From Erysipelotrichales bacterium (GTDB taxonomy: Bacteria; Bacillota_I; Bacilli_A; RF39; UBA660): DNA of 64,000 bases. The stretch lies in the NCBI GenBank assembly GCA_022508565.1, contig JAFLUY010000001.1, positions 186,001 through 250,000 on the forward strand, in the 5' to 3' direction. Shown piece by piece: positions 5,413 to 41,207 of this stretch. The stretch's first letter is position 1, and every line of letters starts with the position of its first letter. Under the pieces are notes generated by a model. The model searched no databases. It was not told the origin of the DNA and saw only the letters and a list, made by a program, of their open reading frames with translations. Both the position numbers and the translations under genes were made by a program.

Positions 5413-5634
5413 ATGGAAGTCAGCTTAGCTTTAAAAATAAAAGAAGATAAAAAATTACATGAGTTTTTAATGAAAAATTCTTACTTTTATATTTTACTAA
5501 ATAGAAATTCCAAATATTATGACGAACTATTAAAAGAATATAAAAAATTTAACCGTAATAATAATATGGAAAAAATTAATGACGCTATTGATAATGCTGA
5601 ATTAATATCCAATATTATAAAAATTATGGAATAA
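5413..5634 (+). CDS. ylbE: YlbE-like protein
   Basis: 73 residues starting directly after the ylbD stop, with GGTGAT in the end of ylbD as ribosome site. The segment LHEFLMKNSYFYILLNRN resembles the YlbE family pattern (short helix, FIR..P.WYR.LSRNP). No transmembrane segment. Function unknown. The YlbD-YlbE pairing is the main support. Confidence 0.65.
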   Translation: MEVSLALKIKEDKKLHEFLMKNSYFYILLNRNSKYYDELLKEYKKFNRNNNMEKINDAIDNAELISNIIKIME

Positions 5635-5657: not shown

Positions 5658-5715
5658 TTGAAAAAAACAGTCCAATAATCTATAATAATTATAGAATAGA
5701 GAGGACTGTTTTTAT
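5658..5715 (+). promoter_or_regulatory. Promoter nested inside a terminator-like hairpin
   Basis: TTGAAA (5658-5663) and TATAAT (5681-5686) have a 17-base spacer. That spacer contains AAAACAGTCC (5664-5673), the exact reverse complement of GGACTGTTTT (5703-5712). The second arm follows the predicted start (about 5693), carries the ribosome site AGAGGA and ends in T residues just before the ATG at 5716. Read-through RNA would contain both arms; RNA from this promoter only the right one. Confidence 0.75.
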
Positions 5716-7851
5716 ATGCAAAGAAAGAAAAATGGGTTTACATTAATCGAATTACTTGCAGTAATTGTGGTATTAGCATTAATAATGATAATTGTAATTC
5801 CAAATGTTTTAGATACAACAAATAAAGCTAAGAAAGAATCTTTTTATTTATATGCTCAAAGTATTCAAAGTAAAGCTTTAGCGCAATATACACAAGATAT
5901 GGACGATGAAACCATTAATGAATCTTGTTTAGTTTATGATATTGGAAAAGATCTAGGCTTAAAAAATACAGGAGATTATGAGGGTTGGATTAAAGTAAAC
6001 AGAATCGCAGTAAATGATAGTGAAAAAAAATCAGCATCTATCCCTATTAACTCAACCGGAATAATTGCATATGTTAATTATTGTACCGAAAAAGGCACAA
6101 GTTGTGAACCAAACAAATCTTATAATATTGATGAAGGTGAAAAAACAGTAACAGTTACTCAAACCTTAAGAAAAGACCAAGTTTTATGTGTTAATTATCA
6201 ATATGAATCAATTGATGTTTCAGGTAGTACCTCACTACAAAGATCTAATAATCTATGTGTTACATATGTTGAAGCTGACAGTGTTGTTTCAAGCTATGAC
6301 TATGACATCGTCTTAACAATGAAGAGTAGAGATTATGGTGTTCAAGGTTTTAATTTTACTGGAACACTTGAAGGAGATTCATTTAAAACAAAATTCTATA
6401 ATGCAATGAATGATTATGCAGCACAAGTTAAAAAGAATAATAAAGATAAAGTCGAAAACCCTGCAAAAATAACATTTAATTCATGTAGTGGAGAACCATT
6501 ACCTGATAAAGGTACAACCGGCGTTGTTTCAACTGAAAAATCGAAAGTAAATGAAAATACTACTAAAAACCAAAATTGTCCTGCACTAGAAGAGAATAAT
6601 AGATACTTTAATATTATTTTAAATGCTAATGGAGGAACAATGCCAGAGGGGATGGCATCAACAATTCGCCAATGCGGAGACTGTGAGACATCTACTGAGA
6701 TTGCTAAACCAACAAGAGAAGGATATATCTTTGAAGGTTGGTATTATGATAAATCATTCAGTGAAAATAAAAAAATACCATCAGGATATCAAACAGGTAG
6801 AATAAATAAAATTGAGAAGAAAAGTGCCACTGGTTGTCTACAAGGATATGAAGATGTTTACCTATATGCTAAATGGAGTACAGATCCATCTATGACTACA
6901 ACAACTGGTGTTGGCACTGTTACTCAATCAACAACTGAAGAGGGAGAAGAAATTACTTCTCAAGTAGTTACAACTGAAGAAGGAGAAGTGAGTACAACTT
7001 ACTTTACTACTACAACTAGAATTACTGATGTTACAGATACAACACTTTTACTAGATACCTTAAATGTATCCGGATACAGTATCGATTTCTCACCAATTAG
7101 ATTTGATTATGAAGTAATAGTACCTTACAGTGAAACAAGTGTTGGAGTATCAGCAACAGCTCATTCTCCGGAAACTTCATCAGTATCTATTACAGGAAAT
7201 AATAATTTAAGCGTTGGAAATAATACAGTTGCAGTAACTGTTACAAACAATGAAACTTTAAAAAGCAATCTTTACATTATAATTGTGGCTAGATTAGATC
7301 AGGGCGGAAATAGAATTACTCAACAAACTGGGCCAATTCAACAAGAATGGGATCCAGAATCAGGTATGCCAGATCCATCGCTTGATGAATCTAATGCATC
7401 ACTAAAATATTTATTAATTGCTGGTAGTGATATACAATTCGATCCAAATATCTATGAATACGATGTTGTAGTAGAAACATTAGATGATCTAAAGCTTTCA
7501 TATGAAACAATGGTTAAGGGTGCTCATGCATCAGTTGATGGTAATAGCAATTTACAAGATGAAAGCGTTGTTCAAATCTTAGTTAGAAGTGTTAATGGTT
7601 ATTATACAAAAACATATAAACTAAAAATTAGATATAACAAAATATTATCAGAAAACACAAAGTACTTAAGAACACTAACAATTATATTAGTAGTCATACT
7701 AGGCTCAATACTTATAATTACAAGAACAAATAAAAAACATGGAGGAAGTATATTTAAAAAGAAATCTAAAAATACTGAAAACAATAGTTCTCAAACAAAC
7801 ACTCCAGAAGGGCCTTCAGATACTAATAATAACGAAAATACAATGCCATAA
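5716..7851 (+). CDS. Giant prepilin-like surface protein (pilin leader, InlB repeat, two cadherin-like domains, C-terminal TM)
   Basis: 711 residues. It opens with a class III/type IV prepilin leader: cleavage expected after Gly7 in KKNG|FTLIE with Glu12, then a hydrophobic helix to about residue 29. Residues 296-388 form a Listeria-Bacteroides (InlB B) repeat (LNANGGTMP ... EGYIFEGWYYD ... VYLYAKW). A Thr/Glu-rich linker (392-443) leads to two cadherin-like beta-sandwich domains (about 445-526 and 561-640). A second membrane helix (651-669) is followed by a Lys- then Asn-rich tail. There are ten cysteines, an even number that could form disulfides. No pilus ATPase or prepilin peptidase is in the window. 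Domain calls are by eye. Confidence 0.75.
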   Translation: MQRKKNGFTLIELLAVIVVLALIMIIVIPNVLDTTNKAKKESFYLYAQSIQSKALAQYTQDMDDETINESCLVYDIGKDLGLKNTGDYEGWIKVNRIAVNDSEKKSASIPINSTGIIAYVNYCTEKGTSCEPNKSYNIDEGEKTVTVTQTLRKDQVLCVNYQYESIDVSGSTSLQRSNNLCVTYVEADSVVSSYDYDIVLTMKSRDYGVQGFNFTGTLEGDSFKTKFYNAMNDYAAQVKKNNKDKVENPAKITFNSCSGEPLPDKGTTGVVSTEKSKVNENTTKNQNCPALEENNRYFNIILNANGGTMPEGMASTIRQCGDCETSTEIAKPTREGYIFEGWYYDKSFSENKKIPSGYQTGRINKIEKKSATGCLQGYEDVYLYAKWSTDPSMTTTTGVGTVTQSTTEEGEEITSQVVTTEEGEVSTTYFTTTTRITDVTDTTLLLDTLNVSGYSIDFSPIRFDYEVIVPYSETSVGVSATAHSPETSSVSITGNNNLSVGNNTVAVTVTNNETLKSNLYIIIVARLDQGGNRITQQTGPIQQEWDPESGMPDPSLDESNASLKYLLIAGSDIQFDPNIYEYDVVVETLDDLKLSYETMVKGAHASVDGNSNLQDESVVQILVRSVNGYYTKTYKLKIRYNKILSENTKYLRTLTIILVVILGSILIITRTNKKHGGSIFKKKSKNTENNSSQTNTPEGPSDTNNNENTMP

Positions 7852-7879: not shown

Positions 7880-7908
7880 TTGACTATTAAAATAATCAAA
7901 TATATAAT
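7880..7908 (+). promoter_or_regulatory. Promoter of the second prepilin gene
   Basis: TTGACT (7880-7885), 17-base spacer, TATAAT (7903-7908). A second TATAAT lies at 7914-7919. This is one of the best -35/-10 pairs in the window, suggesting strong expression. Confidence 0.75.
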
Positions 7909-7936
7909 TAAATTATAATAGAAAGAGGAATAAAAT

Positions 7937-8458
7937 ATGAAAAAGAAGAACGGTTTTACTTTAGTTGAATTATTAGCTGTTATCGTCGTATTAGCAATTA
8001 TCATGATTATTGCAATACCAAACGTATTAGAGACAATGAATACAGCGAGAAAGAGATCTTTTGCTCTATATATCGACAAGATAGTAACAAATACTCAAAC
8101 ACAATATGTATACGATGCAAACGGAGGCGCAATTCAAGGAGCTGGTTGGTATGTTTATGATATCAAAACAGACTTAGGATTAACTGGTACAGGATCATAT
8201 CAAGGATATGTTACTGTAAATGCTGAAGATGTCGATAATCCACATTATATTGTTGATCTATTTGATAATAACTATATGATTGTATCTCATGACGTTTCAG
8301 CATTAGGAATGCCAGATGCTAATGATAGAGTTATTGAATCATTAGATAAATCTCAAATAAATAATTCTAATTTAAAGGCTTGTGAATCAGCACAATCTAG
8401 ATTTGGTGCTACTGGTGCATCTTGCTATACAAGACAAGGATATAAAATTACTAACTAA
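7937..8458 (+). CDS. Type IV prepilin-like protein
   Basis: 173 residues. The leader KKKNG|FTLVELLAVIVVLA gives cleavage after Gly6, Phe7 as the mature N-terminus and Glu11 as the conserved acidic residue. The hydrophobic helix is nearly identical to that of the preceding 711-residue protein. The rest (WYVYDIKTDLGLTGTGSYQG and on) is a short globular pilin-like domain with two cysteines near the C-terminus. It has its own strong promoter and terminator. Likely a major or minor pilin/pseudopilin; assembly genes are not seen here. Confidence 0.8.
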   Translation: MKKKNGFTLVELLAVIVVLAIIMIIAIPNVLETMNTARKRSFALYIDKIVTNTQTQYVYDANGGAIQGAGWYVYDIKTDLGLTGTGSYQGYVTVNAEDVDNPHYIVDLFDNNYMIVSHDVSALGMPDANDRVIESLDKSQINNSNLKACESAQSRFGATGASCYTRQGYKITN

Positions 8459-32213: not shown

Positions 32214-33530
32214 ATGGCAGTAAAAACAGTTGCTCTTGATGAATATATTAAAAGACAACATGATGTATTTAATGCTTATATAAGTTCAAACGGAAAAGAA
32301 AGTTCCGTACTTCCTTTCGTTTCAGAATATAGCAAGTCTGATGAAATAGAATATACTCCTGAAAATATAATAAATTATTTGAATTCTTATATAAAAAGTA
32401 AACAAATATCTAACCAAGAAGTAAAACAATATAATCAAACGAGATTAATACCTAATGACATTATTTTTAAAAGAGGCAGAATTATTACAGAAATGCTTAT
32501 TGAAAATCAAGGTTCTAAAGAAATACTACCTAGATATCAAGCATATTTTGCCAAAAAAGATGGAAAGTTACAACCTTACAGCGAATCTTACATTTTAAAA
32601 TGTCGTGATTATTACCTAGAACACACAAAAAATCAAGCTATTCTTTTTGCTTACCAAAATGTTGAAGAATTAGCTACTCGTGGTAAATACGATATCGAGC
32701 TAATAACTAAAGTATTAGCAATAAAAGATAATACTCAAGCTCTTGATTTCTTAAATAGAATTAATATTTCAAAAGTTAGCTTTGGTAATCTAGTAACTGA
32801 GTACCAAACGCTATATCCAGCCGATTTAGGAAATCTTGCAAGATTAAGATTTTTATATGATAATCTTCATAACCAAATTAGTAAAGTAGTTAAATTTGTA
32901 AATGTAAAAGAACACAAAGAAACATTAGAATATAGATTATTATCACTAAGAAGAATATTAGAAGAATATTTAATGTCTGACATAGAAAATATTAGTGAAT
33001 TATTTACTAAACACAATTTTAATGAATATAAATTTAATGAATTATTAAAAGATGCTGAATTAAGCAAAGATAGAATATTACATGGATTAATAAATAAATA
33101 TAATGCTAAAAAAGCATCAGTTAATAATAGTTATAAATCAATTCTTGATTTAATTATTAAAGCTAAAAGAAATGGAATTAATTATGGGTATGGCTATCGT
33201 GAACTTAACATTTATGATTACTATACCATCAAAAACGGTATATCTTCTAAAACATTATTAGATTACGCTAAAAACGTGTATGATGTTGATACATATAATG
33301 AAGTAAAAGATATAATTGATAACTTTAATCAAGATGACATAAGTAATACTAAAGAAGAATTATTAAATAGTATAAGCAATAAAAATAATAAAACAACACT
33401 AATTATCGATTATTTAGAGTTTGCTTCATTGCCGTTAACTATCGAAATGTATGAGGGAGTTTTAGAAAGAAACCAAAACAAAGATATTTCCTTTGAAATT
33501 GAAGTAAAATCAAAAGCAGTGAATATTTAA
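32214..33530 (+). CDS. Unknown soluble protein, mostly helical
   Basis: 438 residues from the ATG at 32214, which follows a very strong Shine-Dalgarno (AAGGAGGG). The frame also extends back into era but without a ribosome site. Predicted to be almost entirely alpha-helical and charged, without signal peptide or membrane segment. Family not recognised. It is inserted between era and yqzL-recO, which are adjacent in Bacillus. The strong ribosome site suggests good expression. Confidence 0.65.
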   Translation: MAVKTVALDEYIKRQHDVFNAYISSNGKESSVLPFVSEYSKSDEIEYTPENIINYLNSYIKSKQISNQEVKQYNQTRLIPNDIIFKRGRIITEMLIENQGSKEILPRYQAYFAKKDGKLQPYSESYILKCRDYYLEHTKNQAILFAYQNVEELATRGKYDIELITKVLAIKDNTQALDFLNRINISKVSFGNLVTEYQTLYPADLGNLARLRFLYDNLHNQISKVVKFVNVKEHKETLEYRLLSLRRILEEYLMSDIENISELFTKHNFNEYKFNELLKDAELSKDRILHGLINKYNAKKASVNNSYKSILDLIIKAKRNGINYGYGYRELNIYDYYTIKNGISSKTLLDYAKNVYDVDTYNEVKDIIDNFNQDDISNTKEELLNSISNKNNKTTLIIDYLEFASLPLTIEMYEGVLERNQNKDISFEIEVKSKAVNI

Positions 33531-33534
33531 TCTA

Positions 33535-33570
33535 AATAACACCCATTATATAAATAGAAAGGGTGTTATT
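33535..33570 (+). promoter_or_regulatory. Hairpin with internal -10 box upstream of yqzL
   Basis: AATAACACCC (33535-33544) and GGGTGTTATT (33561-33570) are perfect 10-base complements. The 16-base loop contains TATAAA (33549-33554). A start about seven bases on falls at the right arm, which supplies GGGTG as ribosome site for the ATG at 33573. Confidence 0.6.
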
Positions 33571-33572
33571 TT

Positions 33573-33650
33573 ATGACAAAAAAAGAATTATGGGAGTTAT
33601 TTAAGAAAACAGGTAAAATAGAATATTATTTAGAATATAAAAAGAAGTGA
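33573..33650 (+). CDS. yqzL: YqzL-like mini-protein
   Basis: 25 residues: MTKKELWELFKKTG then KIEYYLEYKKK. Bacillus YqzL (about 47 residues) has the same core, W..FE.TG.I..YL.YK, and lies between era and recO, matching this position. The stop is TGA and overlaps the recO ribosome site (GAAGTGA). Expression is likely from the preceding hairpin/promoter. The function of YqzL is unknown. Confidence 0.75.
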   Translation: MTKKELWELFKKTGKIEYYLEYKKK

Positions 33651-41034: not shown

Positions 41035-41040
41035 TAAATT

Positions 41041-41207
41041 ACCTAAGAGAGGTTCAAACTATATAACCGACTATTTTGTGATAATTGGGAATCTAATTGG
41101 TCTGTGGTGTTGAAAACCTAGTCTTACTAGGGATCCTAAAACAGATCATGTGATGCCCACCTCGTGCGAGCGGGCTTATATCACGCGAACTTCTCCTAGG
41201 CTTTTTT
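41041..41207 (+). ncRNA. ssrS: 6S RNA
   Basis: About 165 bases with nested stems. Closing stem 41042-41055 with 41187-41200 (13 of 14 pairs), then GTGATA (41078-41083) with TATCAC (41179-41184), GGTCTGT (41099-41105) with ACAGATC (41141-41147), and apical CCTAG/CTAGG (41117-41131). A small hairpin (GCCC..CTCG/CGAG.GGGC) sits on the 3' side of the bubble, as in known 6S RNAs. A T run ends the transcript. In Bacillus 6S-1 RNA (bsrA) lies next to tcdA and rarA, both nearby here. 6S RNA binds the SigA holoenzyme and mimics open promoter DNA. Confidence 0.85.

Follow-up and report, generated by a model that had tools for sequence, protein, structure and literature searches.

Does the hairpin that encloses the promoter of a giant prepilin-like gene in this Erysipelotrichales bacterium prevent the message of the upstream genes from being read as a pilin message, or is it a plain terminator, a protein-binding site or a chance repeat? 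The locus lies in a stretch of 64,000 nucleotides (the window, that is, the whole stretch of DNA that was analysed), and its features are as follows.

5413..5634, + strand: upstream ylbE-like gene, the source of read-through; its stop codon ends at 5634
5658..5663, + strand: -35 element TTGAAA, read directly
5663..5673, + strand: left arm AAAAACAGTCC, in the promoter spacer (arm search and fold)
5676..5692, + strand: inner palindrome TCTATAATAATTATAGA around the -10 element (RNA fold)
5681..5686, + strand: -10 element TATAAT, inside the hairpin loop, read directly
5698..5704, + strand: Shine-Dalgarno-like AGAGAGG, by eye
5703..5713, + strand: right arm GGACTGTTTTT, with the last two Shine-Dalgarno G, the space to the ATG and the T run
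5716..7851, + strand: giant prepilin-like gene, 711 aa, ATG at 5716 (ORF and Pfam)

The promoter, TTGAAA-17-TATAAT (5658-5686; spacer read as 5664-5680), matches the consensus at 11 of 12 positions. As the sequence-only reading had described it, the left arm lies in the spacer between -35 and -10, the -10 element stands in the loop, and the two arms are perfectly complementary. They form 11/11 base pairs (5663-5673 with 5703-5713) across a loop of 29 nt. That reading had also placed the ribosome site and a T tail in the right arm; the T run is indeed there, but only the last two G of AGAGAGG are paired, and the inner palindrome within the loop had been overlooked. The focal RNA fold (−18.1 kcal/mol; z −4.3 against shuffles) has the outer stem and, beyond a small internal loop, an AT stem formed by TCTATAATAATTATAGA, which partly closes the loop; this palindrome is either the inner hairpin stem or a part of a common pilin promoter module. 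The outer stem has the make-up of an intrinsic terminator, a GC-containing stem (ACAGTCC/GGACTGT) followed by TTTTTAT, with five U directly 3' of it. A terminator scan for loops of 3-8 nt gave no match there.

The 711-aa product has a prepilin leader (Pfam N_methyl, 1.4e-6), and also matches Flg_new and Cadherin-like domains. The name ylbE, taken over from the sequence-only reading, fits by position next to a clear YlbD, but the Pfam match is sub-threshold (E 0.075). Neither sequence reading nor the terminator scan revealed a second terminator-like site in the ylbE-to-prepilin interval, and in an Rfam scan of the window the focal element had no match above the gathering score. The only matches above the Rfam cut-off in the window were a 6S RNA (41037-41206) and a ribosomal protein L21 leader (728-801). 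Directly downstream of the giant gene, a second prepilin gene (173 aa) has a TTGACT-17-TATAAT promoter (7880-7937) and no such hairpin.

To weigh the possibility that the hairpin is a functionless inverted repeat that arose by chance in AT-rich DNA, we used a stem score, which rates the best Watson-Crick stem that the last 24 bases upstream of a start codon form with the 41 bases preceding them. The focal score of 15 is the top among 198 gene starts (∼305 kb of the own genome, comprising the window and further stretches). Chance would agree with the presence of the hairpin in only one of eight species and with its being a single pick from the whole window; however, shuffles of the left part give an expectation of 0.05 starts with a score of at least 14 among the 198, and the position, the T run and the loss of an older terminator (see below) fit a function. 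We therefore hold a chance origin improbable. A search of the whole own genome for the seven inner base pairs of the arms, spaced by a gap of 20-50 nt, gives a single occurrence. When perfect arms near start codons were counted over the ∼305 kb, they were ordinary terminators, chance matches, the focal site and one like-built site at 33534. The focal geometry is what the read-through idea needs, and it is beyond chance.

The action of the element was modelled with a long read-through RNA and a local RNA starting near 5693. Opening of the ribosome site (stretch −16 to +3) is predicted to cost 13.6 kcal/mol in the read-through RNA versus 3.4 kcal/mol in the local RNA, so that by these energies the site is paired in the long RNA only, where positions 5703-5711 have a predicted unpaired probability of ≤0.02. 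In the predicted fold, two Shine-Dalgarno G are the only paired ones and the AUG lies 2 nt outside the stem. The arms lie on either side of the putative start of the internal promoter, one upstream and one in the leader; because the promoter is conserved in 8/8 genus orthologues, the left arm is very probably upstream of the transcript start. Polymerase arriving from parC-ylbD-ylbE would copy both arms, and its RNA would fold into a hairpin ending in a U run. As this hairpin would pair the end of the Shine-Dalgarno sequence and the space to the AUG, read-through RNA would stop or be poorly translated. Polymerase at the internal sigma-A-type promoter would start near 5693, downstream of the left arm, and the locally started message would lack the hairpin and be translated.

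We compared the same gene in a genus set of nine genomes, eight of which have the prepilin orthologue. All eight have a promoter with a 17-nt spacer and TATAAT, the -35 element being TTGAAA in seven and TTGCTA in one (G007). The strong hairpin was not seen in the seven other orthologues; the species of the window alone has it. Likewise, the difference in opening cost between long and short RNA is 10.1 kcal/mol in this species versus −2.1 to 3.0 kcal/mol in the other seven. Short arm matches of the TATCTT/AAGATA type in G001, G003, G005 and G007 were considered as a conserved lock at the prepilin gene and rejected as too weak, their duplex energies being not clearly better than those of shuffles (the G005 spacer was one A short in this shuffle test; the swap test used genomic DNA). 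In the swap test, each left part is paired with its own right part versus the right parts of other genomes, and the orthologues without G000 showed no clear arm matching by it (p 0.07). Arms that change together between species, as in the forespore locks described below, are not found at the focal gene. A candidate widespread leader motif, ATAAT-N7-AGAATAGAAAGATAGG, was uninformative in a pattern search of the nine genomes: it returned the orthologue itself in two genomes and four matches with three mismatches, and the reversed control pattern returned three. Ten related loci from a contig search were repeat-domain or low-complexity matches only, not orthologues, and were left unused.

Between ylbE and the -35 element, five of the seven relatives (G001, G002, G003, G006 and G007) have, by eye, a plain hairpin with a T run. 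The energies of these pre-promoter hairpins are −2.7 to −6.8 kcal/mol; the species of the window shows nothing there beyond an AT stretch (−0.9 kcal/mol). A plain hairpin with a T run is also seen by eye in G005, after a different upstream gene. In G004 (L009), the sequence upstream of the orthologue is CTCCCTTTTTTTATTGAAAAAAAGGAG, where a T-run/A-run hairpin spans the -35 element and the T run of the terminator is able to pair with the A run of the promoter. The simplest history would be that the pre-promoter terminator was lost and the hairpin around the promoter took over its place, so that the lock in the species of the window would replace the ordinary terminator that most relatives keep before the same promoter. 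Because the hairpin is not kept in the seven other genus genomes, selection for the focal copy is not demonstrable. The insulator role proposed by the sequence-only reading thus agrees with the geometry, the promoter conservation and the predicted energies, but finds no agreement in the conservation of the hairpin. Its further claim, that the element would guarantee expression only from its own promoter, was too strong; at best the element would lower read-through expression.

The same comparison bears on another reading, namely that the hairpin is a plain intrinsic terminator of the ylbE operon that arose around the promoter, the hiding of the ribosome site being an unselected side effect. 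In its favour, the hairpin coincides with the loss of the usual terminator, its stem base has the A run and T run typical of terminators, and the other genus orthologues lack a lock; against it, a 29-nt loop is unusual for terminators. We regard this reading as unlikely, though far from negligible; further evidence against it comes from spoIIR (see below). That the focal element is a lock against read-through that contains its own promoter, apparently standing in for the usual terminator, has in our judgement a little better than an even chance.

A shared pilin promoter raises the possibility of a protein-binding site, in which the inner palindrome around the -10 element would serve a pilin regulator as operator, the outer arms being incidental. 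The string TCTATAATAATTATAGAATAG recurs once in the own-genome DNA compared (L086:16604-16624), before a three-gene operon 15 kb away of which at least one of the three products has a prepilin motif, and the corresponding operon in G006, G001 and G003 is preceded by a similar promoter with a similar string. The pilin module carries the palindrome TTCTATAATAATTATAGAA at the start region (L086:16583-16635; also in L245, L246 and L247), a possible operator of a pilin regulator. Against an operator at the focal site, most giant-prepilin orthologues have an imperfect palindrome or none, and an operator leaves the outer arms unexplained, as the second prepilin-type operons lack them; in these an ordinary terminator abuts the -35 element and there is no outer hairpin. 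Since TCTATAATAATTATAGAATAG recurs and the outer hairpin does not, the inner palindrome is part of the pilin promoter module, and what is new at the focal site is the outer arms. An operator with incidental arms appears very improbable to us; an operator as such and a lock may hold together.

The like-built site at 33534 consists of two features.

33520..33550, + strand: forespore-type promoter TGAATA-18-CATTATA, the only match in the window, where about one is expected by chance
33534..33571, + strand: arms AAATAACACCC / GGGTGTTATTT with a loop of 16 nt, directly before the ATG at 33573

TGAATA-18-CATTATA is, we presume, a promoter of the sigma-G/sigma-F type. Its -35 element is of the TGNATA type and the left arm lies in the spacer, which makes 33520-33575 a forespore-type lock; the focal pilin element does not have a TGNATA-type -35 element (0/1). 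A passage of PMC3789822 calls the C. difficile consensus very similar to that of B. subtilis. The second element (33520-33575) precedes a YqzL-like ORF of 25 aa and then recO; the RecO match is clear and the YqzL Pfam match sub-threshold (E 0.015). A comparable site is present in 8/8 genus genomes with a recO match (nine searched). In the alignment of these eight, 87.5% of the cells pair and five of the 11 pairs change on both sides; the covariation score was reached by 0/500 shuffles. The stem in G005 is degenerate.

A covariance model of 33520-33575 was run on 145 family genomes. It matched 75 of them at E ≤ 0.05, several on both strands, with sites before yqzL, before spoIIR and, in G130, before sigG. 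Some of its matches are plainly ordinary terminators (L107, L115 and L117), and the model was used only for finding candidates; the counts below come from gene-anchored sets.

The gene spoIIR is present in 9/9 genus genomes, and all nine leaders have the order TG(A/T)(A/T)TA, left arm, CAT, Shine-Dalgarno, right arm and ATG. The arms vary and yet match, being ATTACCC/GGGTAAT in most genus genomes and ACATTGCC/GGCAATGT in G002. Other families of the class (L160-L186) have quite different but matching arms, for example AAATTCACCTAC/GTAGGTGAATTT in L165 and AAAACATCACC/GGTGATGTTTT in L182. In the own genome (L252:1050-1103), spoIIR lies downstream of two ORFs that by eye are release-factor-like and PrmC-like; the stop codon of the PrmC-like one overlaps the -35 element (TGAATA) of spoIIR, and the arms are CTTTATCC/GGATAAAG. 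The right arm has no T run, which indicates from the sequence that the pairing outlived any terminator.

In the swap test, own pairs score higher than swapped ones at all three forespore genes, with the caveat that the genomes are related and the z values overstate independence. For spoIIR in the family, own pairs score 9.91 versus 6.88 for swapped pairs (n = 43 among the matches listed, z 13.2); z is 10.0 without the genus (n = 34 among the matches listed) and 5.3 in other class families (n = 21 among the matches listed). The values for yqzL (n = 21) and sigG (n = 32 among the matches listed) are z 7.5 and z 7.0; as a control, the sequence directly upstream of recO gave no signal (n = 36, z −0.5). 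The spoIIR family set combines the best 29-30 of 85 genomes with a match and 13 family genomes from the genus and class searches, and holds 43 of 44 loci: one had no usable 65 nt upstream, and L139 had been left out beforehand as its upstream DNA is missing. The yqzL set is 21 of 36 recO loci, the other 15 having no recognisable yqzL with a start. The sigG set comes from the best 29-30 of 79 genomes with a match and includes L218 and L228, which are apparently misplaced (their contigs end near the gene).

Strict locks, with a cut-off at a stem score of ≥10, are found at spoIIR in 8/9 genus genomes (0.3 expected), and, among the matches listed, in 16/34 of the family outside the genus (0.6 expected) and 6/21 of other class families (0.4 expected). 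At yqzL they are found in 7/8 within and 5/13 outside the genus (0.1 expected for each), at the prepilin gene in 1/8 (0.1 expected) and at recO in 0/36 (0.1 expected). A TGNATA-like -35 element stands just 5' of the left arm in 39 of 42 forespore-gene matches, and TTTT occurs within or behind the right arm in 35 of them. By sequence, the forespore lock is widespread without being universal, and its constant feature is the pairing, not the T run.

These loci also bear on the plain terminator. Own-genome spoIIR keeps its pairing although the T run is gone (GGATAAAGAATATG), and TTTT stands at the right arm in only 5/11 matches (3/6 outside the family and 2/5 at yqzL outside the genus). Ribosome-site pairing can thus persist without a terminator in this lineage. 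The lineage demonstrably keeps locks elsewhere, because matching arm changes hold the layout at spoIIR, sigG and yqzL, and returning to the focal hairpin, it is likely a species-private lock and terminator in one, as modelled above.

The search for the same layout in related genomes, which had been suggested with the original reading, thus ended away from its starting point: the layout was not clearly seen at the seven prepilin orthologues and is present at spoIIR, sigG and yqzL-recO. With their matching arm changes, these three make a better case in sequence than the focal site, and the result on the conserved forespore locks is both firmer and wider. At such sites the left arm sits in the spacer of the forespore promoter and the right arm in the leader; only transcripts initiated by a forespore sigma factor would therefore be translatable. 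Cell-type specificity would then hold at translation too, against housekeeping read-through (from prfA-prmC in the case of own-genome spoIIR). We consider it moderately probable that this spore-forming lineage and other families of the class use promoter-threaded read-through locks as a standing device, giving forespore-only translation at spoIIR, sigG and yqzL-recO, and that in the pilin element the device was recently copied onto a housekeeping promoter and gained a terminator. If true, a single element of ∼55 bases couples the start of a message to its readability, and a compact genome obtains tight insulation that takes up no additional space. The spoIIR lock makes a prediction: breaking the left arm, which is not in the gene's own message, should let vegetative read-through make SpoIIR. 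The swap test is a simple and general lock finder for any set of genomes.

Known systems share parts of this design. The transposase genes of IS10, IS50 and IS200 are insulated by an inverted repeat that hides the ribosome site only in RNA started outside; there the repeat lies at the end of a mobile element, whereas the focal one involves the spacer of a host gene's promoter. At the prepilin gene of the relatives, terminator and promoter are fused within about 60 bp, as at the focal site, but their hairpin stands before the -35 element and the focal hairpin encloses the promoter. In phage T4, the early or middle long RNAs of I-TevI, soc, e, 39, 25 and 26 hide the ribosome site, and the late promoter of I-TevI is placed such that late RNA lacks one arm and is hence translated, according to the sections of PMC2988022 on these genes. 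The T4 systems are a phage timing switch for which those sections of PMC2988022 state no terminator role, whereas the focal hairpin is a predicted terminator. For a read-through hairpin at spoIIR or yqzL-recO, as a class, we found no description among the open-access papers listed.

The closest relative is the hairpin at B. subtilis sigG, which reportedly goes back to Masuda and colleagues in 1988. In the account given in a passage of PMC5942855, the proposal is that a large hairpin keeps spoIIG read-through RNA from being translated; RNA from PsigG cannot form this hairpin. As at sigG, the focal left arm is upstream of the putative transcript start and the right arm is at the ribosome site; sigG differs in having 20 or more pairs and a forespore promoter, whereas the focal site, at a pilin gene, has 11 pairs, a promoter of the sigma-A type and a right arm with a T run. 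The principle is already established by sigG and T4, and the focal site adds a housekeeping promoter and a T run. If the forespore locks act as proposed, sigG, the single known cellular case found in the literature, becomes one of a class.
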